Shown here piece by piece: positions 28,629 through 39,182 of a DNA stretch of 64,000 bases. The notes under the pieces are model-generated. The model was not told the origin of the DNA. It saw nothing but the letters and a program-made list of their open reading frames with translations, and did no database searches. The translations under genes were made by a program, and so were the position numbers. The stretch comes from Acidovorax sp. DW039 (GTDB taxonomy: Bacteria; Pseudomonadota; Gammaproteobacteria; Burkholderiales; Burkholderiaceae_C): NCBI RefSeq assembly GCF_037101375.1, contig NZ_AP029019.1, forward strand, positions 930,001 to 994,000, in the 5' to 3' direction. How positions within the stretch are numbered: position 1 is the stretch's first letter; each line of letters starts with the position of its first letter.

Positions 28629-30017
28629 TCAATCCCGCGTCACGCGCAGCACTTCTTCCCTGCTGGTGATGCCCGCAGCAATAAGGCGCTCCCCGTCCTC
28701 ACGCATCAGTGTCATGCCAGCGGCAAGGGCGGTGGTGCGGATTTCCGCCTCGGATGCTTGGGCGTGAATTTGCGCGCGGATGGCGTCATCGGTGACCAGC
28801 AGCTCAAACACGCCCGTGCGCCCGGCATAGCCGGTATGGCCGCAGGCATCGCAACCTTTGCCGTGGCAGGCCGTGCAGTACTTGCGCACCAGCCGCTGTG
28901 CCAGCACGCCAAGCAAGGAGGACGACAGCAGAAACGGCTCCACGCCCATGTCGATCAAGCGCGTAACCGCACTGGCCGCGTCGTTGGTGTGCAGCGTGGC
29001 CAGCACCAAGTGCCCGGTCAGAGACGCCTGAATGGCGATCTGTGCCGTCTCAAAGTCCCGGATTTCCCCGATCATGATGATGTCCGGGTCCTGCCGTAGT
29101 ATGGCGCGCAGGGCTTTGGCAAACGTCAGGTCGATCTTGCTGTTGACCTGCGTCTGTCCCACCCCTGGCAGCTCGTACTCGATGGGGTCTTCCACCGTCA
29201 TGATGTTGTTGCGGGTTGCGTCGAGCCGCCCCAGGCCTGCATACAGGGTGGTGGTCTTGCCGGAGCCTGTCGGGCCTGTCACCAGGATGATGCCGTGGGG
29301 CTGGCTGATCAGGCCTTCAAAACGGTGCAAGGTGTCGCCCTGCATGCCCACGGCTTCCAGACTGATCTTGTTCTCGCTCTTGTCCAGCAGACGCAGCACG
29401 GCCCGTTCGCCATGGGCGCTGGGCAGGGTCGATACGCGCACGTCGATGGCGCGGGTGCCCAGGCGCAGGCTGATGCGTCCGTCTTGGGGCAGGCGTTTTT
29501 CCGAGATGTCCAGATCCGCCATGATCTTCAGGCGGGAGATCAGCGCTGCATGCAGCGCCCGATTGGGTTGCACCACTTCACGCAGTGTTCCGTCCACCCG
29601 AAAGCGCACGCTGGAGTGCCGCTCGTAGGGCTCGATGTGAATATCGCTCGCACCGTCCCGGGCTGCCTGAGTCAGCAGCGCGTTGAGCATGCGGATGATG
29701 GGCGCATCGTCGGCCGTCTCCAGCAAGTCCTCCACCGCGGGCAAGTCCTGCATCATGCGGGAGAGGTCTGCATCCGACTCGACTTCACTGACCACCGTGG
29801 CCGCGCTGGATTCACCCTGCGCATACGCCGCCGTGATGCGTTGCGCCAGGCTGGGGGCATCCAGCGAGAGCAGATGGCGCACCTTGTACTTGCGCAGTAC
29901 TTCGGAGAGTGCCGTGACGTCCGGCGCAGGGCCATGCCACAGCACAAGCTGCTGGCCGTCATCCTCCAGCAAAAGCTGTGAGGTACGGGCAAATGCATAG
30001 GGCAATGGGTGGCGCAT
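28629..30017 (-). CDS. gspE: Type II secretion ATPase GspE
   Basis: GspE is the cytoplasmic hexameric ATPase that drives pseudopilus assembly. The 462-residue protein has an N-terminal GspL-binding region, Walker A GPTGSGKTTT, the acidic box IMTVEDPIEYELPGVGQ, Walker B DPDIIMIGEIRD and the LATLHTNDA histidine box. The tetracysteine zinc loop is kept as CTACHGKGCDAC. The start at 30017 removes 28 residues with no family match in the longer frame. It is the last gene of the minus-strand gsp operon; the expected gspF does not follow. Confidence 0.95.
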   Translation of the reverse strand: MRHPLPYAFARTSQLLLEDDGQQLVLWHGPAPDVTALSEVLRKYKVRHLLSLDAPSLAQRITAAYAQGESSAATVVSEVESDADLSRMMQDLPAVEDLLETADDAPIIRMLNALLTQAARDGASDIHIEPYERHSSVRFRVDGTLREVVQPNRALHAALISRLKIMADLDISEKRLPQDGRISLRLGTRAIDVRVSTLPSAHGERAVLRLLDKSENKISLEAVGMQGDTLHRFEGLISQPHGIILVTGPTGSGKTTTLYAGLGRLDATRNNIMTVEDPIEYELPGVGQTQVNSKIDLTFAKALRAILRQDPDIIMIGEIRDFETAQIAIQASLTGHLVLATLHTNDAASAVTRLIDMGVEPFLLSSSLLGVLAQRLVRKYCTACHGKGCDACGHTGYAGRTGVFELLVTDDAIRAQIHAQASEAEIRTTALAAGMTLMREDGERLIAAGITSREEVLRVTRD

Positions 30018-30081
30018 GGCGTGTGATGTTTGGCGAGACTCGTAAAAGGGGTTGGGTGCTCTGGACGTTTCTTGCACCCAC

Positions 30082-30177: not shown

Positions 30178-32808
30178 TTACTGGCGACTCACATCCGCTT
30201 CCAGCGCCAGGGCTCGAACAGAGGCTGCAGCCTTGTCCGCAGCCACTTCGCTGTCGAAAGGACCCACCCGCACCCGGGTGCGGGTACCCCGGTTGGTGTT
30301 GATGGCCTGGACGTTCACGGGAAGGGACGTCTTGCGCAGCTTGGACAGGGCCTCGTTGGCGGACTTGTCGTTCGCAAACATGCCTACGTTCACAAAGAAC
30401 AGGGCAGGGGTCGCACTGTCCATCGGGGCGGGTACGACATTGGTGCCTACCGGATCGGGAGCAGCCACGGCGGGGGGCATGGGGCTGGGGGCCAATGCGG
30501 GAGCCACAGGAGTTTGCATGGCCTGCGGTTGCGGATGGGGCAGGGGCGTTTGCGCGGCTGCAGCAGCTTGTGGTGGCACACCGTTATCCGATGCCACAGG
30601 GCGTACGCGTGACTCCAGCGCAGGCAGGATGGGGGCACCGGATACCGAACGCATCACGGTACTGGGCTCAGGTTGCACCACCTGTTGCAGGGCCCGGATG
30701 GACTCGTAGCGATCCGCCACCAGCGCGTCGTTGGTGTTGTTGTCTCGCACCACCACCGGCCGCAGGAACACCATCAGGTTGGTCTTCTTGCGCGAACGGT
30801 TTTCGCTGCGGAACAGGGCTCCCACCACGGGAATGTCACCCATGACGGGGACCTTGTCTTCGCCTTGCGAGTAGCTGTCTTCCAGCAGGCCGCCAATGAC
30901 GATGATGTTGCCGTCATCCACCACCACGTTCGATTCGATGGACCGCTTGCTGGTCGTGGGGCCATTGGTGTTGTTCTTGGTGGACTCGTCGATCTTCGAG
31001 ACTTCCTGGTAGATCGACATCTTCACCGTGCCGTTCTCGCTGATCTGCGGACGCACGCGTAGCATCAGGCCCACGTCCTTGCGCTCCACCGTCTGGAACG
31101 GGTTGACGGTGGTGCTGCCCGTGGTGTTGGCGTACGAGCCCGTGACGAAGGGCACGTTGTTGCCGATCACGATCTTGGCTTCTTCGTTGTCCAGCGTCAT
31201 CAGGTTGGGCGTGGACAGCACATTGGAGTCGCCGCTCTTTTGCAGGAAGTTGGCCAGCGCACCGAGGTAATACTGACCGTTGATGCGCGGGGCCAGCGCC
31301 ACATTGAGCCCGCCACCCAGCGAACTGAGCGCGGTGGCCGCAGTGGAGGTGCTGCCCGTCGCCAATGCGCCGGTCAGCGAGAGGATGTTGGAGCCCGCTG
31401 CACTGGAGTTGGTGCCGATCACCCCCACCGTGCCGCTGCCGCTGCTGCCCACCGTGCCTTGCCACTGGATGCCGAACTGGGCCACCTTGTCTGCGGCCAC
31501 TTCCACAATCAGGCTTTCCACCAGCACCTGTGCGCGGCGGCCGTCGAGCTTGTCGATGACGGCGCGCAGCTGGCGGTACAGGGGCTCGGGTGCGCTGATG
31601 ATGAGCGAGTTGGTGGTCGGGTCCGCCTGGATCTGCCCGCCTGTGGAGGGCTGATTGGCATTGGCCGTGCTGCTCGCGCCGGTGTTGCTGCCCAGGCCCG
31701 AACTGGCCCCCAGCCCGCCCGAAGTATTGTTGGTGCCCCCCAGGGTGGAGTTGGTGCTCGTCGCCATGGTGGAGCCATTGGAATAGCTGGATGAGGTGCT
31801 ACCCCCACTGCTGCTGGCACCCCCGCTAGCCCCTGCCAGTGCAGCGCGCAGCGTGGTGGCCAGCTTGGTGGCGTCCGCATTCTTCAGGTACACCACGTGG
31901 ATATTGCCTGTGGATGCACTGCTGCCGGGCGTAGGTGGCTGGTCTAGCTTGTCGACCAGTGCACGTACCAAGGCCACGCGTGCCGGGTTGGCTGCACGCA
32001 GGATCAGCGAGTTGCTGCGGGGCTCGGGCAGCAGCGTGGTCTTGAAGGATGTGTCGGCCTGCCCTTGGGCTGCACCAGCTGCGGCGCCATTGCTGCCCCC
32101 ATCAATCAGGCGAGAGACAAGCGGGGCGAGGTCCGATGCCAGGGCGTTGCGCAGCGGAATCACCTCGACATCGGTGGCATTGGAAACATCCATCGCAGCG
32201 ATGATGCGGGCCAGGCGCTGCAGGTTGTCGGCATAGTCCGTGATCACCAGCGAGTTGTTGCCGGGGTTCACGTTGATGGTGTTGTTGGGGCTGATCAGCG
32301 GGCGCAGCACCGGCACCAGATTGGCCGCGTTTTCAAAGTTGAGCTTGAAGATCTGCGTGACGATCTGGCCCCCGCCAGGACCGCCCGAGTTGCCACCTTG
32401 TGTCACGTTCACGCTGCCTGCCTGCAGCTTGGCGTCGGCCTCGGGCACCACCTTGTACAGACCTGCGGACTCCACCACCGTGAAACCCTGCAGCCGCAGT
32501 GCAGCCAGAAACTGCTGGAACGCCGCTGCGGGGGGCACTGCGCGCTCGGTAATCAGGGTCAGCTGTCCCTTCACCCGGGGGTCTACCACCACGTTGCGAC
32601 CCGTGATGGTGGCCATGGTGCGTGCCACGGCTTCAATCTCTGCGTTGGCAAAGTTCAGGGTGACGGGTTCGCCGGCGCGCACGCTGCTGGTGCTCGTACC
32701 AATCGCTGTTTGGGCATGAATTTGGCCGCTAAGGCACGCCAAAAAAGCGCAGGCAGCTACCGTATTGATAGCAAATCGCGTGCGTGGCGAGAGGATGGAT
32801 GTCGTCAT
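30178..32808 (-). CDS. gspD: Type II secretion secretin GspD with C-terminal SPOR domain
   Basis: GspD forms the outer-membrane secretin channel. The 876-residue protein has a signal peptide (residues 1-32, cleavage near IHA|Q), N0-N3 domains (about 35-440), a secretin domain with VPFVTGSY and KDVGLMLRVRPQI (about 450-725), and then a Pro/Ala-rich linker and a SPOR domain at about 802-876 (FFVNVGMFANDKSANEALSK; RVRVGPFDSEVAADKAAASV). SPOR domains bind denuded septal glycan; a SPOR tail is not usual for GspD. The N3 domain carries a long Ser/Gly/Asn/Thr-rich insertion around residues 330-410. The signal-peptide core (12-28) is encoded by a dispersed repeat. The start lies 4 bases after the gspN stop. 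Confidence 0.95.
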   Translation of the reverse strand: MTTSILSPRTRFAINTVAACAFLACLSGQIHAQTAIGTSTSSVRAGEPVTLNFANAEIEAVARTMATITGRNVVVDPRVKGQLTLITERAVPPAAAFQQFLAALRLQGFTVVESAGLYKVVPEADAKLQAGSVNVTQGGNSGGPGGGQIVTQIFKLNFENAANLVPVLRPLISPNNTINVNPGNNSLVITDYADNLQRLARIIAAMDVSNATDVEVIPLRNALASDLAPLVSRLIDGGSNGAAAGAAQGQADTSFKTTLLPEPRSNSLILRAANPARVALVRALVDKLDQPPTPGSSASTGNIHVVYLKNADATKLATTLRAALAGASGGASSSGGSTSSSYSNGSTMATSTNSTLGGTNNTSGGLGASSGLGSNTGASSTANANQPSTGGQIQADPTTNSLIISAPEPLYRQLRAVIDKLDGRRAQVLVESLIVEVAADKVAQFGIQWQGTVGSSGSGTVGVIGTNSSAAGSNILSLTGALATGSTSTAATALSSLGGGLNVALAPRINGQYYLGALANFLQKSGDSNVLSTPNLMTLDNEEAKIVIGNNVPFVTGSYANTTGSTTVNPFQTVERKDVGLMLRVRPQISENGTVKMSIYQEVSKIDESTKNNTNGPTTSKRSIESNVVVDDGNIIVIGGLLEDSYSQGEDKVPVMGDIPVVGALFRSENRSRKKTNLMVFLRPVVVRDNNTNDALVADRYESIRALQQVVQPEPSTVMRSVSGAPILPALESRVRPVASDNGVPPQAAAAAQTPLPHPQPQAMQTPVAPALAPSPMPPAVAAPDPVGTNVVPAPMDSATPALFFVNVGMFANDKSANEALSKLRKTSLPVNVQAINTNRGTRTRVRVGPFDSEVAADKAAASVRALALEADVSRQ
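32724..32775 (-). repeat. Dispersed repeat copy 6, encoding the GspD signal-peptide core
   Basis: On the minus strand TTTGCTATCAATACGGTAGC is followed by TGCCTGCGCTTTTTTGGCG and a TTAGCGGCC arm. It matches the consensus well and is in frame with gspD, coding for FAINTVAACAFLACLSG. Confidence 0.8.
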
Positions 32809-32812
32809 AGGG

Positions 32813-33682
32813 TCAACCCACGGTGATGAGCGAGCGAGCGCCGCTGCGCCGCCCAATGATATTCAGGAGATTGGCCAGTGCGGCCTCACGGTCTGGGGCG
32901 GCCTGGGCCTCGCCCGAAAAGCGCAGCCGCTGGCCCACCCACTGGCCGCTGCCACTCAGTTGCAAATGTCCTTGCAGTGTGCTGAGCGTGAGGGTGGGCA
33001 CATCGCCCCCCGCCAGTTCCAGCCGGTAGCTGCCCATGGGGCGCAGGGTGGACAGGCGGGACGAGATGGACATGGCGTCGAGCTGTACCCGACCCGCCAG
33101 CACCATGCGGCCCGCAGACCAGACAGCCTCCAGCCCCTGGGTGCGCAGCATCAGCTGTCCCTGGGGCTGCAGGGTGTTCCAGGGGGTGCCCAGACCAGAC
33201 AGCACGGCTGCAGGCCATTGGCTGGAACCGTCTTGCAGGCTCATGCGCACGCGCCCCAGTCCCAGCTGGATCGTTGCCTGCAAAGGTTGAGGAGTGCAGC
33301 AGGTGGAATGCAGTTGCAGCTGCAGCCCGCTCCAGGAAGGGCGCAGTTTCCATTCCAGCCGACCCGGCAGCGCGGCGCTGTCCTGGCTGGCGCCGCCGCC
33401 TGTCAGCACCAGTTGTGCAGAGCCCGTCCAGATCGTGCCGCGGGCTTGTACCAGCTGCACTTGCCCGCCCGTGGCCACTGCAGCCCGCTGGGCCAGCCAC
33501 TGTGCGGGCGCAAAGGCCACGATGGCGGGCAAGAGACCCGCTGCTGCGCCCGCAATGGCCCAGCCCCAAGGCGCGCGGGGCGGTGCAGACGTGGCCGAGC
33601 GTGAGCGCGAGCGGCTCTTGCTCTTCTGGGCTGAACTGGGGTGGGGGGTGGAACGGGAGCGAGGAGACACAGCGTCTGGCAC
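32813..33682 (-). CDS. gspN: Type II secretion protein GspN
   Basis: GspN is an accessory inner-membrane/periplasmic component present in some type II systems, including those of Burkholderiales. The likely product is about 289 residues from a GTG at 33682, 15 bases after the gspM stop; a GTG at 33670 is equally possible. The N-terminus is very basic with SRSRSRSA repeats, followed by one membrane helix (WGWAIAGAAAGLLPAIVAFA) and a beta-rich periplasmic domain with the GTIWTGSAQL block typical of GspN. It lies between gspM and gspD. Confidence 0.85.
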   Translation of the reverse strand: MPDAVSPRSRSTPHPSSAQKSKSRSRSRSATSAPPRAPWGWAIAGAAAGLLPAIVAFAPAQWLAQRAAVATGGQVQLVQARGTIWTGSAQLVLTGGGASQDSAALPGRLEWKLRPSWSGLQLQLHSTCCTPQPLQATIQLGLGRVRMSLQDGSSQWPAAVLSGLGTPWNTLQPQGQLMLRTQGLEAVWSAGRMVLAGRVQLDAMSISSRLSTLRPMGSYRLELAGGDVPTLTLSTLQGHLQLSGSGQWVGQRLRFSGEAQAAPDREAALANLLNIIGRRSGARSLITVG

Positions 33683-33699: not shown

Positions 33700-34236
33700 T
33701 CAGCGGGCAGGCAGGGCCAGCACTACGGTGCCGTCCCAGCGCGGGGCGGCAGGGTTGGCCGATGCGTTGCCCAGCGTCGCAGGCGTGGCGGAAGCCGGTG
33801 CGTTGCTGCGGGTGAACTTGGCCTCTACCGGCACGGCCCGTGCATTGGTGCGGGCCAGTGCCAGCCACTGGGCCACTGCGTCGGCAGGGGCCGCTTTCAA
33901 GGTCACCGTCACGCGGTCACCCAGAACGTTCATCTGTGCAGCCGTTCCCAGCCGCTGGGTCAACGCCGTGCGCAGGGCACCCACGGCATCGCCAGGCGCT
34001 GTCTGCGGCTGCGCCTGCAGTTGCTGAGCTTCGGACTGCATGCGCTGCATGAGCTGCAATTGCTGGTCGAGCTGGCTGTGCTGCTCGGGTGCCTGCCGCA
34101 AGGTGGACAAGGCCGGAGCCAGGGCCACCCACCACACGAGGGCCACCACCACTACTGCCGCTGCGGTCAGCAGCAGGTTCTGTTCACGCGGGGCGAGCGC
34201 TTTCCAGCGCGCTTGCAAGGCAGCGCTGCGGCTCAT
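33700..34236 (-). CDS. gspM: Type II secretion protein GspM
   Basis: GspM is a bitopic inner-membrane platform protein that partners GspL. The 178-residue protein has the typical N-terminal RWKALAPREQNLLLTAAAVV with one membrane helix (about 20-42), a coiled-coil stretch rich in Gln (about 48-80), then a small ferredoxin-like periplasmic domain. Its ATG overlaps the gspL stop by four bases. Confidence 0.93.
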   Translation of the reverse strand: MSRSAALQARWKALAPREQNLLLTAAAVVVVALVWWVALAPALSTLRQAPEQHSQLDQQLQLMQRMQSEAQQLQAQPQTAPGDAVGALRTALTQRLGTAAQMNVLGDRVTVTLKAAPADAVAQWLALARTNARAVPVEAKFTRSNAPASATPATLGNASANPAAPRWDGTVVLALPAR

Positions 34237-35492
34237 GGCGCAACCTCCGTGCGTACCAGCAAGGTGCTGTCTTCAGTGCGGGCGCGGTAGCCTGCTGCTT
34301 GCAGTCGGGTGTTGAACACGGATTCCTCGTCGGGTGCCAGTGCCAGGCCCCGCAGGCGCAGCTCTCCTGGCGCAAATTCGATGGCTTCAGGAATGCGGCC
34401 GTCGGGCAGGCTTCCGCCGGTCGCAGCCATCAGGGGTTCCAGGTCGCGTGGGGACACGGCTCCGGCTTTTTGGCGCAGCAGGCCCAGTTCGCGCTCCATT
34501 TGCACCGGGGCGTCAACCACCACCTTGACCTGCGGGAACGTGGCCGTGAGCGCTGAGCGAACCGCAGCCTGCTTGCTGGCCAGAGATTGCTTCTCTTGCC
34601 ATGCCCACACATTCAGCCCCACCACATGCGCGGCCAGCAGCAAGCCCGTGGCCCAGCGCGCGGCGCGCCACTGGGGCGCATACAGCAGCGCACTGGCTGC
34701 GGAGCCCGCCTTGCGCATGGCGCGGGTGCGGCTTGTGCTGGCCAGCTCAAACTGGGCAAGATCCCAGTCGCTGCGCGCGGCATCGAGGGCGCGCTGGCTG
34801 GCGGTGTGCAGGGTGACTTGTCGCCCCAGGGTGCGTTCGGCATGTTCGGCCACGGCGGGGTCTGCTCGCACCACGGGGGCGGCTGCCTCATCGGCGGCTG
34901 CAGGCGTCAAACCTGCCAAGCCCAGCACGGCTGCCGACAGAGGCAGCAGGGTGACGCTTTGGTCTGCCCCCTGGCCGCACAGCACCATCTGGGGTTCGCT
35001 GGGGCTGCCCAGCACGCACACTTCGGTGCCGCCGCTGGCGGTGGGGCCGGGCGCAAACTCCGGCACCACGCGGGATACGGGGCGGCCCGCAGCCTCCAGG
35101 GCCTGCAGGTTGTCGCGCAGCCAGCTGCGGTCGCACACCGCCACCCATACCGGGGCGCCGGCCTGCGCACCGGGCTGCAGGGCAAAGTGCAGTTGGGCAG
35201 GGTCGTCGAGCAGGCGGTCTTCCAGCAGCCCTTCCAGAATGGATCGCAGGCGCGGTGTCTGGTGACTGGGCCCCAGCGGAATGCCCGGCGGCAGTTGCAC
35301 CCGTTGCCAGGACAGGGCAGAAATCGGCACCACGGCCACCACCTCGCCGCCAGGGCGCGAGGGCTCGGGCAACAAGGCAGCAGCCGCACGCGCATGGTCA
35401 GCGGCGGTGTGGCCGTCCGACGTCAGCGTGTAGCTGTATTTGGTGGAAATGCCCGGTGGCGTGAGGGGCAGGGTAAGGATCAGGGTGCTCAT
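34233..35492 (-). CDS. gspL: Type II secretion protein GspL
   Basis: GspL links the GspE ATPase to the periplasmic parts. The 419-residue protein has an actin-like cytoplasmic region (about 1-275), one membrane helix near 282-302 (WATGLLLAAHVVGLNVWAWQ) and a periplasmic ferredoxin-like domain at the end (GELRLRGLALAPDEESVFNT). It lies 62 bases after gspK and overlaps gspM (ATGA). Confidence 0.92.
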   Translation of the reverse strand: MSTLILTLPLTPPGISTKYSYTLTSDGHTAADHARAAAALLPEPSRPGGEVVAVVPISALSWQRVQLPPGIPLGPSHQTPRLRSILEGLLEDRLLDDPAQLHFALQPGAQAGAPVWVAVCDRSWLRDNLQALEAAGRPVSRVVPEFAPGPTASGGTEVCVLGSPSEPQMVLCGQGADQSVTLLPLSAAVLGLAGLTPAAADEAAAPVVRADPAVAEHAERTLGRQVTLHTASQRALDAARSDWDLAQFELASTSRTRAMRKAGSAASALLYAPQWRAARWATGLLLAAHVVGLNVWAWQEKQSLASKQAAVRSALTATFPQVKVVVDAPVQMERELGLLRQKAGAVSPRDLEPLMAATGGSLPDGRIPEAIEFAPGELRLRGLALAPDEESVFNTRLQAAGYRARTEDSTLLVRTEVAP

Positions 35493-35554: not shown

Positions 35555-36589
35555 TCAGCGTTGTGCGGTATTGCCAGCCAGGCCGGGACCGGGGCCGAAG
35601 TTGCCCCTCTCCCGCCAGAGCGTGGTGGTGGTAATGGTGTCCTTGCGCACGAGAGAGCGCTCATCCACGATGGATTCGCCCAGCCGCAAGCGACCTCGTA
35701 CTTCAAAGTAGTAAGAGGAGACGCCGACCAGTTGGGAGTCGGGCATGTCGTTACTTCCAAGCAACGTTTTGACATCCGTCAGGGTATTGAAGTGCCGAGA
35801 TTCCCTCGCTGCGATCAGCTTTTGGGCACTGGCCAGGTCCGCGCCGTCCAGCGCGGCCCACAGCACGTCCAGTTGGGCGGTATTGAGGTTCACGGGAGTG
35901 GGCATGGGCAGGATGGTGACGTGGGGCGTCAGCGCTGCCACCGTGCTTGCCGGCAGGCCCAGCCATCCCAGCTGCGACACCGTCTGTGGCATGAGCGGGG
36001 CGTTTGCGTCATCCGTGCCAGCAGCCGACTGGGCTTTGCGCAAGGCCTCCACCAGGGTGGTGAGTTGCTGCGACGGCAGGCTCAGGCGCTCAAACAGCCG
36101 CGTGAACTGCTTGAGTGCGCCCGCCTGCACCTGCCCGCCATTGACCAGGCTGGTGAGGTTGAGCTTGCCCTGCATGTCGGTAATCTGGCCTGACAGGAAT
36201 GCATCGGTCGTGTCGGTGCTGGCGTCCTCCACCTGCGAGACATTGCGCTCGGCTGCCAGAAAGGACGACAGCCGGGCCTCTTGCAGCGGTATGGCCCACG
36301 GCTCTGCCAAGTGGTCGGCCCCCCCGGCGCGCCCGTCTTCGCGCAAGATGAGGCGGGACCAGTCCAGCGCGCCGATCAGTATCCAGGAAGCCTGCACGCG
36401 GTCACGCTCTGCGGTTTCCACTTCTACCGCACGCCATTGCTGCCACATGGCTGCGGCCGCCAGCGTGGCAACCAGTGTCACCGTGAGCATGGCCGCCAGC
36501 AGGGCTGCGCCGGTCTGACGTAGACGGGCCGCAGGGCGCACGCCCGATGGATGGGCGCGGTGCGGGGAAGGAGCCTGATGCTGTCTCAT
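35555..36589 (-). CDS. gspK: Type II secretion minor pseudopilin GspK
   Basis: GspK sits at the tip of the pseudopilus with GspI and GspJ. The 344-residue protein has a type IV pilin-like leader ending in the prepilin peptidase site (RQTG|AALLAAMLTVTLVATLA) and a large globular domain with the PVNLNTAQLDVLWAAL helix-hairpin motif and the YYFEVRGRLRLG block. Position +5 lacks the glutamate of other pseudopilins, as is usual for GspK. The start follows 12 bases after gspJ. Confidence 0.93.
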   Translation of the reverse strand: MRQHQAPSPHRAHPSGVRPAARLRQTGAALLAAMLTVTLVATLAAAAMWQQWRAVEVETAERDRVQASWILIGALDWSRLILREDGRAGGADHLAEPWAIPLQEARLSSFLAAERNVSQVEDASTDTTDAFLSGQITDMQGKLNLTSLVNGGQVQAGALKQFTRLFERLSLPSQQLTTLVEALRKAQSAAGTDDANAPLMPQTVSQLGWLGLPASTVAALTPHVTILPMPTPVNLNTAQLDVLWAALDGADLASAQKLIAARESRHFNTLTDVKTLLGSNDMPDSQLVGVSSYYFEVRGRLRLGESIVDERSLVRKDTITTTTLWRERGNFGPGPGLAGNTAQR

Positions 36590-36601: not shown

Positions 36602-37324
36602 TCAGGTCCGGCTACCGGTGCGCACGGGGTTGACCCAGTCGCGCACCAGCAGACCGGTAAGCGGGCCGCCGGGCGAGAGGGTGATGTTCAGGCGTATGCC
36701 TTCAGGAATGGCGTTGCTGCCGTTGGCTTCCTGGTTGGTGCCCGCGCTGGACAGTGCGTTGGACCATGCGCCGCCCCGAAAATAAAAGAGCTGCCAGCCA
36801 TCAATGGGGATCAGCGCCACTTCGCGTGGCCGGTCGGCCTCACCCGGTGTGCGGGCCCACTGGGCCGCCTGGGCCCACGCCTCTTGCCATTGGCCTCGGG
36901 TGCGCAGCGGGGGGGACTGCCAGCGCATCCACTGCGCGCCAGCATTGGTCTCGCGCCGTGTCCACGCCACCACCACCGGGCCTTCGTCGATCACAGCAGC
37001 GCTGCGGCGGGTGAGGCGCAGCACCTGGCCATCCCAGTCCAGCGGCGTGGTATTGGCGATGGGAGTCAGCGCATCCAGGTCTGCGCCCCATTGGCCCAGC
37101 GCGGCCTGCAGCACCAGCATGTCGTCGGCGCGCTGACGGGTGGCCTCTTGCGTGCGCAGCATCCCGTCAATGCCGCGCCAGCTCAGGATGGCTATCAGTG
37201 CCATCACGCTGATGGCGACCAGCAACTCGATCAGGGTGAAGCCGCCAGGTCGCGTACGGCGCTGCCCATGGACCGCGGGCAATGGCTGGGGTGAGGGGCA
37301 GTGCGGCATCGGGCGTGGCACCAT
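36602..37324 (-). CDS. gspJ: Type II secretion minor pseudopilin GspJ
   Basis: GspJ is one of the tip pseudopilins. The 240-residue protein has a leader of about 28 residues ending at the GGFTLIELLVAISVMALIAI cleavage and polymerisation segment, with Glu at +5. The globular part carries the RGIDGMLRTQEATRQRADD and RLTRRSAAVIDEGPVVVAW blocks. The start codon directly abuts the gspI stop. Confidence 0.93.
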   Translation of the reverse strand: MVPRPMPHCPSPQPLPAVHGQRRTRPGGFTLIELLVAISVMALIAILSWRGIDGMLRTQEATRQRADDMLVLQAALGQWGADLDALTPIANTTPLDWDGQVLRLTRRSAAVIDEGPVVVAWTRRETNAGAQWMRWQSPPLRTRGQWQEAWAQAAQWARTPGEADRPREVALIPIDGWQLFYFRGGAWSNALSSAGTNQEANGSNAIPEGIRLNITLSPGGPLTGLLVRDWVNPVRTGSRT

Positions 37325-37726
37325 TCAATTGCGGCCAATGATGGTGGACAGACGCAGGATGGAGGCTTCCCCATCAAACACCTGCGCATCGATGCGACGG
37401 AACTGCGGATTGGGTGTGGGCCGCACGATGATGTTCACATTGAACTGCCGCCCCGCCTGCTCGCAGGATTCGGTGCTGTCGCCCACGCTGGGCATTTGGC
37501 GCGACAGGCGTGCTTTGACCAGTTCGTTTTCGGCGCACAGCTGCGCCAGCACGATGTCGGACTGGCGCTGGGCATTGCGCGTCAGGGTGCCCGCCGCCTG
37601 CGTGCCCGCCACCAGCGCAATCGCCACAATGGCCAGAGCCACCAGAACTTCCACCAGCGTGAAGCCACGGTGCCTTGCCCTGCGAAGGGTATTGGGTGGC
37701 GCAAAGAACGGGAGTCTGCGGATCAT
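37325..37726 (-). CDS. gspI: Type II secretion minor pseudopilin GspI
   Basis: GspI is a short tip pseudopilin. The 133-residue protein has a basic leader and the prepilin segment RGFTLVEVLVALAIVAIALV with Glu at +5. The ATG at 37726 overlaps gspH by four bases; the longer upstream frame is not supported. The globular part has the CAENELVKARLS and RRIDAQVF blocks typical of the family. Confidence 0.93.
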   Translation of the reverse strand: MIRRLPFFAPPNTLRRARHRGFTLVEVLVALAIVAIALVAGTQAAGTLTRNAQRQSDIVLAQLCAENELVKARLSRQMPSVGDSTESCEQAGRQFNVNIIVRPTPNPQFRRIDAQVFDGEASILRLSTIIGRN

Positions 37727-38166
37727 GGGAGGGACTCCACCGCAAAAGGGCGCAGGCCGTCCGTGAACACGCGCAATGCCAGTTCTGGCCGCTCGCGGTG
37801 GGTCAGCACCACCTGCTGCGGGCCGATCAGGGGTTCGGGCCCCAGCACCAGCACCGCATTGCCGCGCACCACCACGCCGGGGTCCAGCCACTGCGACGGA
37901 AGCGATGCATTGGGCACGCCGTCAAACCGGAAGCCTTGCTCCGTCACCACCCAGCGCACCGCTGCGCCGCTGGCACGGGATTTGGCGCGGCCTGCATCCA
38001 GCAGCGCAGCCAGCCGCGCTGCGTCGCGCTCCAGGGCGGTCCTGCCGTTGTCACGCAAAGCCACGGAAACCCCTGCGATGGCGAAGGCCATGATGCTGAT
38101 GACCACCAGCAACTCCAGCAGGGTGAAGCCCCGCGAGGCAGGCGCGTGCGTTGTCATGTCACCCAC
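37723..38166 (-). CDS. gspH: Type II secretion minor pseudopilin GspH
   Basis: GspH is a minor pseudopilin located below the tip complex. The protein has 147 residues (144 from the second ATG at 38157). The prepilin segment is RGFTLLELLVVISIMAFAIA with Glu at +5, followed by the variable globular domain (ALLDAGRAKSRASGAAVRWV). It lies 66 bases after gspG and overlaps gspI. Confidence 0.92.
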   Translation of the reverse strand: MGDMTTHAPASRGFTLLELLVVISIMAFAIAGVSVALRDNGRTALERDAARLAALLDAGRAKSRASGAAVRWVVTEQGFRFDGVPNASLPSQWLDPGVVVRGNAVLVLGPEPLIGPQQVVLTHRERPELALRVFTDGLRPFAVESLP

Positions 38167-38232
38167 GCAGGGCGCAGAGGCGGCGCTCTGCCAGCGAGAG
38201 CATCACGCGCAGCGCAAGGCCGGGGCGCATGT

Positions 38233-38685
38233 TCACTGCCAGCTGCCGATGTCCGCGTCCTTGCCTTCGCCGCCAGACTGGCCGTCTGCGCCGAAGGACA
38301 TCACGTCCACCTCCCCCTTGATGCCGGGGTTGAGGTACTGGTATGGGCGACCCCAGGGGTCGTTGGGCAGCTTGTCCAGGTAGGGCTTCCAGTTGTTGGG
38401 GATGGGGCCTGCCGTGGGTTTGGCAATCAGCGCCTGCAGGCCTTGCTCTGCCGTGGGGTAGCGCTGGTTGTCCAGGCGGTACATCTTGAGCTGCTGGACG
38501 ATGTTGGCAATATCGGTCTTGGCTGCAGTCACGCGGGCATCGTCAGCGCGGTCCAGCACATTGGGCACGATCAGCGCTGCCAGCACGCCGATGATGACCA
38601 TCACCACCATCAGCTCAATGAGGGTGAAGCCACGGGCCAGAGCGCGCCGGGCGGAGCGTACGGAGGAGGAAAGGGAGGTGTTCAC
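38233..38685 (-). CDS. gspG: Type II secretion major pseudopilin GspG
   Basis: GspG is the main pseudopilus subunit. The protein has about 150 residues from a GTG at 38685. It has the prepilin segment RGFTLIELMVVMVIIGVLAA with Glu at +5, and the calcium-site C-terminal block DPWGRPYQYLNPG followed by DVMSFGADGQSGG. The start is uncertain because no ribosome binding site is clear and the frame extends upstream to 38748. It is first in the minus-strand operon; gspC begins only 47 bases away on the other strand, so the two share a control region. Confidence 0.94.
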   Translation of the reverse strand: MNTSLSSSVRSARRALARGFTLIELMVVMVIIGVLAALIVPNVLDRADDARVTAAKTDIANIVQQLKMYRLDNQRYPTAEQGLQALIAKPTAGPIPNNWKPYLDKLPNDPWGRPYQYLNPGIKGEVDVMSFGADGQSGGEGKDADIGSWQ

Positions 38686-38732
38686 TGCAAGCGGTCTCGG
38701 TGATCTCGAATCGGCTGAATCATAATCGCCAC

Positions 38733-39182
38733 ATGGTGACAAACACACACTCTCGTTGGGCTACGCGCCTGGGCACTCTGGTCCTGTGGGCGGCTGCCGG
38801 TGCCAGCGTTGTCTACTGGGGGCTGCGCCTGTCGTCCCGGCCTTCGGGCATGTCGGCCCCCGTGGCTGCGGCGGCCCCGGCGGCGGTGGATGCGGACGCG
38901 CTGGCGCGCCTGCTGGGTGCATCGCCAGCGGCGGCCGTGGCCAAGCCCGCTGCCCCGGCACCTGCCAGCCGCTTTGTGTTGCTGGGCGTGCTTTCAGGCC
39001 GCGCCAGCGGGGGCGGTGCAGCGTTGATCGCCATGGACGGCAAGCCCGCCAGACCGTACCGCGTGGGCGCGCAAGTGGATGCCGGGCTGGTGCTGCAATC
39101 GCTTGGCCCACGGCAGGCCGCGCTGGGTGCGTCGATTGATGGGCCCACCACGGTACGGCTCGAGATGCCGCCCAAGAGCTGA
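38733..39182 (+). CDS. gspC: Short GspC-like type II secretion protein (no PDZ domain)
   Basis: GspC connects the inner-membrane platform to the secretin. The 149-residue protein has one membrane helix (about 10-28), an Ala/Pro-rich periplasmic linker, and a homology-region domain with RFVLLGVLSGRASGGGAALIAMDGKPARPYRVG, split here as RFVLLGVLSG and AALIAMDGKPARPYRVGAQV. The C-terminal PDZ domain of classical GspC is absent. It is transcribed divergently from gspG. Confidence 0.82.
   Translation: MVTNTHSRWATRLGTLVLWAAAGASVVYWGLRLSSRPSGMSAPVAAAAPAAVDADALARLLGASPAAAVAKPAAPAPASRFVLLGVLSGRASGGGAALIAMDGKPARPYRVGAQVDAGLVLQSLGPRQAALGASIDGPTTVRLEMPPKS

Follow-up and report, generated by a model that had tools for sequence, protein, structure and literature searches.

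A C-terminal SPOR domain on the type II secretin GspD of Acidovorax sp. DW039, predicted to anchor the channel to the cell wall

The type II secretion (gsp) cluster of Acidovorax sp. DW039 raises the question of what an outer-membrane secretin would do with a SPOR domain at its C-terminus. The stretch analyzed, hereafter the window, comprises 64,000 nucleotides (positions 930,001 to 994,000 of contig NZ_AP029019.1, assembly GCF_037101375.1) and contains a gspD gene whose product continues past the secretin domain into a Pro/Ala-rich linker and a SPOR domain. An original prediction, made from the sequence alone, had proposed that this tail anchors the secretin to peptidoglycan or places it at sites of wall remodelling, and that it replaces the pilotin or GspA/GspB systems. 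The computational analysis described here confirmed that the tail genuinely carries a SPOR domain, and cell-wall anchoring is, of the roles predicted for it, the most plausible.

GspD was identified as a type II secretin by TIGR02517, with a score of 622.5 bits over residues 52–697 that exceeds the cut-off of 351.35 and establishes membership over the whole model. A Pfam search returned the N0, Secretin_N, Secretin and SPOR domains, the last of which (PF05036) was matched at residues 803–866 with an expectation value (E) of 6e-11 and 43.0 bits, above its gathering cut-off of 21. The same place was scored at 47.3 bits in a genome-wide scan. One open frame runs unbroken from the secretin domain into the SPOR tail, starting with an ATG at 32811 and ending with the stop codon at 30180–30178; the length of the protein is counted from this ATG, and a longer TTG start is also present in the open reading frame list. 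The position originally given for the tail was right to within a few bases (30405–30181), the residue range suggested for a profile search (795–876) lay close to the match obtained, and both SPOR-like motifs pointed out at that time are present behind a linker of the composition described. The AMIN family was absent from the Pfam matches at E 0.01, and the TIGR02515 score of 247 bits fell under its cut-off of 284.35, which places GspD outside the AMIN/PilQ-type secretins. The SPOR domain lies C-terminal and not ahead of N0, so the layout is not that of Legionella LspD. Inspection by eye of alignment A3 showed an invariant Ala33-Gln34-Thr35 at the predicted end of the signal peptide.

The SPOR domain modelled alone from nine aligned sequences (alignment A6) reached a predicted local distance difference test score (pLDDT) of 84.7 and displayed the element order of a ribonucleoprotein-like fold, as had been anticipated; no other fold was predicted. 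A Foldseek search with this model gave 1589 matches at E ≤ 10, and the only ones at E ≤ 0.001 were the RlpA SPOR structures 6i05 and 6i09. Among the matches listed by VIA-align, Z scores of 8.3, 8.2 and 8.0 were obtained for 6i09 (bound to denuded glycan), 6i05 and CwlC, respectively. Values just above 8 are near the 7.8 of unrelated proteins sharing the common fold and would not by themselves settle the matter; RlpA was also the best sequence match of the GspD SPOR domain (E 0.002), and Pfam concurs, so that the SPOR identity and fold are supported by model and sequence together. The full-length GspD model was poor (mean pLDDT 43.9, predicted template modelling score 0.22, 28 sequences), and its SPOR part alone was used (pLDDT 77–83). 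The linker scored 23–31 in that model; because the barrel was likewise low, the predicted disorder of the linker rests on its composition.

The distribution of the tail was patchy. All 47 genomes of the Acidovorax sample were covered by the genus search, and a GspD of the type II secretion system cluster type was found in 44. Five genomes were left unjudged (G001, G006 and G029 with no such match, and G017 and G033 because of contig ends). Among the 42 with a judgeable GspD, the tail was present in 19 and absent in 23; besides the window, it was thus found in 18 genomes of the genus, with the SPOR domain of G041 on a separate piece at a contig edge. Precomputed Pfam annotation combines secretin and SPOR domains in 47 database proteins (P0001–P0047), some of them fragments and one of them (P0001) a near-twin of the window GspD. 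A second protein search, starting from P0047, returned nine matches including itself and added little; both protein searches scored the 7999 candidates sharing most words, and fusions further afield may be missed. Because the tail recurs in 18 further Acidovorax genomes and in 47 database proteins, it is neither a chance product nor an assembly error.

Wider sampling located the fusion in a narrow group. Eight of 80 named GspD loci carried the tail, all labelled Acidovorax (seven were not judged, five being truncated and two lacking the anchor motif). The family sample covered 349 genomes of 141 genera, with matches listed down to about 7e-15; among these, frames of more than 700 amino acids (aa) with the tail occurred in at least three of the five genomes of the window's genus and in G165. 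The order sample covered 399 genomes of 159 genera, with matches listed down to about 9e-13; among those listed, only the window's match spanned both the secretin end and the SPOR domain (1–204 of 205), the other listed rows starting at 1 or 2 stopped at or before 142, and the other SPOR-side rows sat in frames of at most 544 aa. On these samples, the survey of Burkholderiales proposed originally found the fusion, among the matches listed, in Acidovorax and in a single further genus of its family. No relic SPOR sequence was seen by eye in other frames downstream of gspD in three-frame prints of the 23 tail-less genomes, and in 22 of them a gspE-like start comes only a few codons later, the exception being G008. 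For one tailed gspD (G020, locus L051), the 450 bases that follow contain no gspE-like start, which sets it apart from the remaining tailed loci sequenced there.

The predicted glycan-binding site was mapped onto RlpA numbering by alignment. The key glycan contacts of RlpA are Q270, R302, R309, R311 and F274, with neighbours adding backbone contacts (PMC6895207). The window GspD has Asn808 at the Q270 place, Thr839 at R302, Arg846 at R309, Arg848 at R311 and Phe812 at F274, and it retains equivalents of F274, N276, R309 and R311; Arg841 and Arg844 sit near Thr839 in the sequence. Site counts were taken over 29 GspD SPOR domains, several of them near-copies (19 from the genus, G165 and nine database proteins; P0038, whose end continues into another protein, was left out for that reason), and R309 was retained in 26 and R311 in 27. 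Asparagine also occupies the Q270 place in 18 of 18 domains of DUF2628-SPOR-like proteins and in 8 of 8 similar domains. Glutamine was found there in RlpA, in all 12 domains that we take to be DedD-like and in the presumably FtsN-like protein of the window's genome, these labels not being profile results. DUF2628 labels were assigned by text pattern and by eye, with a profile test for the L003 protein only, and eight paralogue loci in which the domain was not picked were dropped (L075, L083, L085, L086, L087, L092, L097 and L106).

The origin of the tail was addressed with trees of the secretin body and of the SPOR domain. On the tree of 43 bodies the tail requires seven changes, at least four of them forced by well-supported branches, and it occurs in both main clades of the genus. 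A single clade of tailed GspDs, with the 19 tailed rows constrained together, was rejected by the approximately unbiased test (p-AU 0.0026). When other genera and database proteins were included, a tree of 72 rows gave eight changes, by a quick method and with an outgroup that was not clean. The GspD SPOR domains form one side of a branch with support of 92/79 (80 columns, weak in detail) and fall within a 100/100 group with the DUF2628-SPOR-like and similar domains, apart from the DedD-like domains. A DedD or FtsN origin is not favoured, since the tree and the shared Asn point to the DUF2628-SPOR-like domains; the argument rests on these two because plain mean identities to the GspD SPOR domains are nearly equal (40.7% for DUF2628-like and 38.9% for DedD-like). 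A single joining of SPOR to gspD followed by several losses would be the simplest reading. Two tail-less genomes, G036 (L027) and G044 (L028), have 82–83 residues from GAPxL to the end, against 25–47 in the other 21, and look like recent losses because a long linker of the tailed type remains. The linker motif P[MLQ][QM][QDEP]L[TVAS] occurs in 13 of 19 tailed linkers, in G036 and G044, and in none of the 21 other tail-less sequences; it was picked after viewing the sequences and is a description, not a test. The SPOR domains of P0040, P0044, P0046 and P0047 branch outside those of Acidovorax, and by their bodies P0044 and P0046 group with Simplicispira-like rows, P0047 lies next to Extensimonas and P0040 next to the window's group. 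From these outlying proteins, the fusion may predate the genus.

GspA/GspB and pilotin genes were searched for in the genomes. The window's genome encodes a GspA-like ATPase together with GspB at C1:673001–675651, where GspB (PF16537, C1:674809–675651) follows a 600-aa AAA ATPase. The C-terminus of the ATPase gave sub-threshold matches only, to PG_binding_1 (17.7 bits, cut-off 23) and to a GspA_C39-like family (16.5 bits, cut-off 27). Because GspB adjoins an ATPase with these weak matches, the two are very likely a GspA/GspB pair, judged from sequence, and its partner could be any of the four secretins encoded by the genome. PF16537 was matched in 35 of the 47 genomes, the window's included, by a search that gave no match in 14 control genomes and so has no positive control of its own. 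Of the 19 tailed genomes 17 had GspB, as did 16 of the 23 without a tail (Fisher p 0.15), the direction opposite to replacement; G009 and G046 are the tailed genomes without it. The PulS/OutS and AspS pilotin families (PF09691 and PF16549) were matched in none of the 47 genomes, tailed or tail-less; the E. coli control was positive for both, and a pilotin of another family may be present.

The anchoring reading can be set out as follows. A SPOR domain of the DUF2628-SPOR kind would have been joined once, behind a flexible Pro/Ala linker, to an otherwise ordinary type II secretin. This would have happened in a common ancestor of Acidovorax and its near relatives, and the tail would since have been lost several times. 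Once the barrel is inserted, the C-terminus would be found on the periplasmic side of the outer membrane, because in other GspD channels pilotins attach to the C-terminal S domain and staple the barrel outside at the outer membrane (PMC9239104). The distance from outer membrane to peptidoglycan is 12–25 nm, and GspD channels of other species have 15 subunits (PMC9239104). The 72-residue linker, up to about 22–26 nm when fully stretched, would let the SPOR domains reach peptidoglycan, and from these lengths about 15 of them per ring could grip the wall, holding the channel by the avidity of many weak glycan-strand contacts. The fused tail would in this way clamp the channel to peptidoglycan and supplement the GspA/GspB system without replacing it. 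We consider this reading, taken as a whole, to be probable, with modest confidence.

Several observations weigh against it. The absence of the tail in more than half of the readable genomes marks it as dispensable in many relatives, the VIA-align scores stand close to those of unrelated proteins, and the branch support for a single origin is modest; exchange of gspD between species is a conceivable alternative to losses. The canonical Gln is missing from the Q270 place of the GspD SPOR domains (Asn in 26 of 29, Arg in 3), and the R302 place is Thr in all 29. In G014, G021 and G045 (L053, L046 and L047), Ser stands at the R309 place and Arg at the Gln place, and by sequence their glycan site may be decaying or changed. 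Across 91 pairs from 14 of the 19 tailed genomes, in which distant pairs are near saturation, the median ratio of nonsynonymous to synonymous substitution rates (dN/dS) was 0.44 for SPOR, 0.21 for the body and 0.33 for the linker, and the mean proportion of nonsynonymous differences was 0.244, 0.098 and 0.358, respectively. The patchiness, the forced changes on the body tree, the altered sites in three genomes and the faster evolution of SPOR relative to the body would all suit a tail that is a fusion leftover of little function in the course of being lost. Such a passenger would not be expected to yield what was seen in nine hand-picked close pairs, where dN/dS was 0.06–0.27 for SPOR, 0.08–0.17 for the body and 0.15–0.51 for the linker; 20 columns are invariant in alignment A1 and 25 in alignment A6, and the tail occurs in both main clades and in the outlying P0044 and P0047. 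On these comparisons the SPOR domain is under selection, less tightly than the channel, and we judge a tail of little function unlikely.

The same site residues bear on the placement that the original prediction offered beside anchoring. Put more specifically, the tail would guide GspD to denuded glycan of the septum and of young poles and so position secretion machines there, as AMIN does for PilQ. Denuded septal glycan is the ligand of canonical SPOR domains (PMC6895207), the AMIN domains of PilQ recruit it to nascent and new poles (PMC10653833), and the R309 and R311 equivalents are retained in the window GspD. The glutamine that is important in the SPOR domains of DamX and FtsN (PMC6895207) is the one replaced in GspD and kept in the DedD-like and FtsN-like domains, and the nearest relatives are the DUF2628-SPOR-like proteins. 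Because Asn replaces Gln, caution over a preference for septal glycan is warranted; placement by this means is possible but doubtful, and anchoring remains the stronger part of what had been proposed. Substitution of the tail for a pilotin or for GspA/GspB, in delivery of the secretin to the outer membrane or its passage through the wall, is highly improbable. The lack of pilotin matches, two tailed genomes without GspB and the failure to find by eye an invariant lipobox Cys on GspD (sequence and alignment A3) would agree with it. Tail-less relatives equally lack a pilotin match, GspB is if anything commoner with the tail, and the statement that neither system is seen holds for the window but, as regards GspA/GspB, not for the genome, in which GspA-like and GspB genes lie elsewhere; replacement of GspA/GspB was rejected on that ground.

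The features of the locus are collected in Table 1. gspD is flanked by gspN and gspE, and the cluster also contains gspC, G, H, I, J, K, L and M. The gspC product is short (160 aa), PF11356 covers only its residues 73–136, and the frame listed for gspC shares sequence with the 5' end of that of gspG. gspF lies outside the cluster; three GspF-family proteins of the genome were scanned, and only C1:1183647–1184879 (L194:3648–4880, minus strand) passes TIGR02120 (434 bits, cut-off 424). Roughly 215 kb separate this gene from the cluster; a luciferase-like monooxygenase gene lies close to it, and the DUF2628-SPOR gene is some 13 kb away. A second GspD-family secretin, at C1:811–814 kb, gave no SPOR match. 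It belongs to a second type II-like system (C1:802–814 kb, L195) with a PilN-domain protein and a GspE-family ATPase that bears an MshE-type cyclic-di-GMP-binding domain.

Table 1 Features of gspD and its neighbours, in window coordinates.
Feature	Position	Strand	Basis
gspD, 877 aa, type II secretin with C-terminal SPOR domain	30178..32811	-	TIGR02517, Pfam
Predicted signal peptide, residues 1–33	32713..32811	-	Judged by eye from sequence and alignment A3
N0 domain, residues 52–121	32449..32658	-	PF21305, 90.5 bits
Secretin barrel domain, residues 523–689	30745..31245	-	PF00263, 176.9 bits
Post-barrel segment, residues 695–730, ending GAPILP	30622..30729	-	Printed tails; similar in tail-less relatives
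Linker, residues 731–802 (72 residues, 47% Pro+Ala)	30406..30621	-	Composition
SPOR domain, residues 803–877, beta-alpha-beta-beta-alpha-beta	30181..30405	-	Pfam, genome scan, models, fold searches
Asn808, at the place of RlpA Q270 (conserved glycan-reading Gln)	30388..30390	-	Alignment, PMC6895207
Arg846 and Arg848, corresponding to R309 and R311 of the RlpA basic patch	30268..30276	-	Alignment
gspE, ATPase, next gene downstream (start chosen by the analyst)	28629..30023	-	TIGR02533, 668.3 bits, cut-off 630
gspN (start chosen by the analyst)	32813..33652	-	PF01203, 94.6 bits
gspM	33700..34236	-	PF04612, 78.4 bits
gspL	34233..35492	-	TIGR01709, 122.6 bits, cut-off 65
gspK	35555..36589	-	NF037980, 240.9 bits, cut-off 130
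Pseudopilin genes gspJ, gspI, gspH, gspG	36602..38748	-	Order and pilin-like GFTLxE motifs only
gspC, short, divergent	38700..39182	+	PF11356, 38.7 bits

Fixing of type II secretins to the wall is known for few systems, and the presence or absence of the tail among close relatives with otherwise similar secretins offers a natural comparison of whether such anchoring affects secretion, the placement of machines or their number. What the SPOR domains of the Asn-for-Gln class bind is a further question. One tentative and rather unlikely extension is that the GspD tail and the DUF2628-SPOR domains form a separate, Asn-marked class that reads a form of peptidoglycan other than septal denuded glycan. 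The tail would act as a clamp, easily lost in evolution, at the outer-membrane end of the type II channel, and the channel would then be fixed to the wall in some sister species and not in others. In the literature searched, which left most subscription journals outside its scope, neither a C-terminal SPOR domain in a secretin nor a Gln-to-Asn change in a SPOR glycan site was found, and the available parts of PMC12239567 and PMC8767351 contain nothing on such a secretin. Within that scope, what is new here is the C-terminal placement of SPOR on a type II secretin; databases already carry the domain call as precomputed Pfam matches.

Among known systems, the closest in kind is Legionella LspD, likewise a type II secretin with its own predicted SPOR domain (PMC9239104, PMC6617341) and described as the only type II secretion component known to have one (PMC9239104). 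In LspD, compared here by description only, the domain is N-terminal, ahead of N0, and the system lacks GspA/GspB (PMC9239104), whereas the GspD SPOR domain follows the barrel and linker in a genome with GspA/GspB-like genes. PilQ is another secretin anchored or placed by a peptidoglycan-binding domain of its own (PMC10653833), although its AMIN domain is N-terminal (PMC5285504) and of a different family that was not matched on GspD. The GspA/GspB (OutB) scaffold also links a type II secretin to peptidoglycan (PMC9239104), but by means of separate proteins. At the level of the domain itself, the nearest relatives by tree are DUF2628-SPOR proteins; the one in the same genome (C1:1168982–1170496) shares the Asn and 44% identity with the GspD SPOR domain, yet is about 500 aa long and has a DUF2628 region (Pfam) at its N-terminus and a long linker. 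The RlpA SPOR domain (PDB 6I05 and 6I09) is the best match in sequence and fold and shares the F274, N276, R309 and R311 equivalents with GspD, while differing at Q270 and R302 and belonging to a lytic transglycosylase and not to a secretin.
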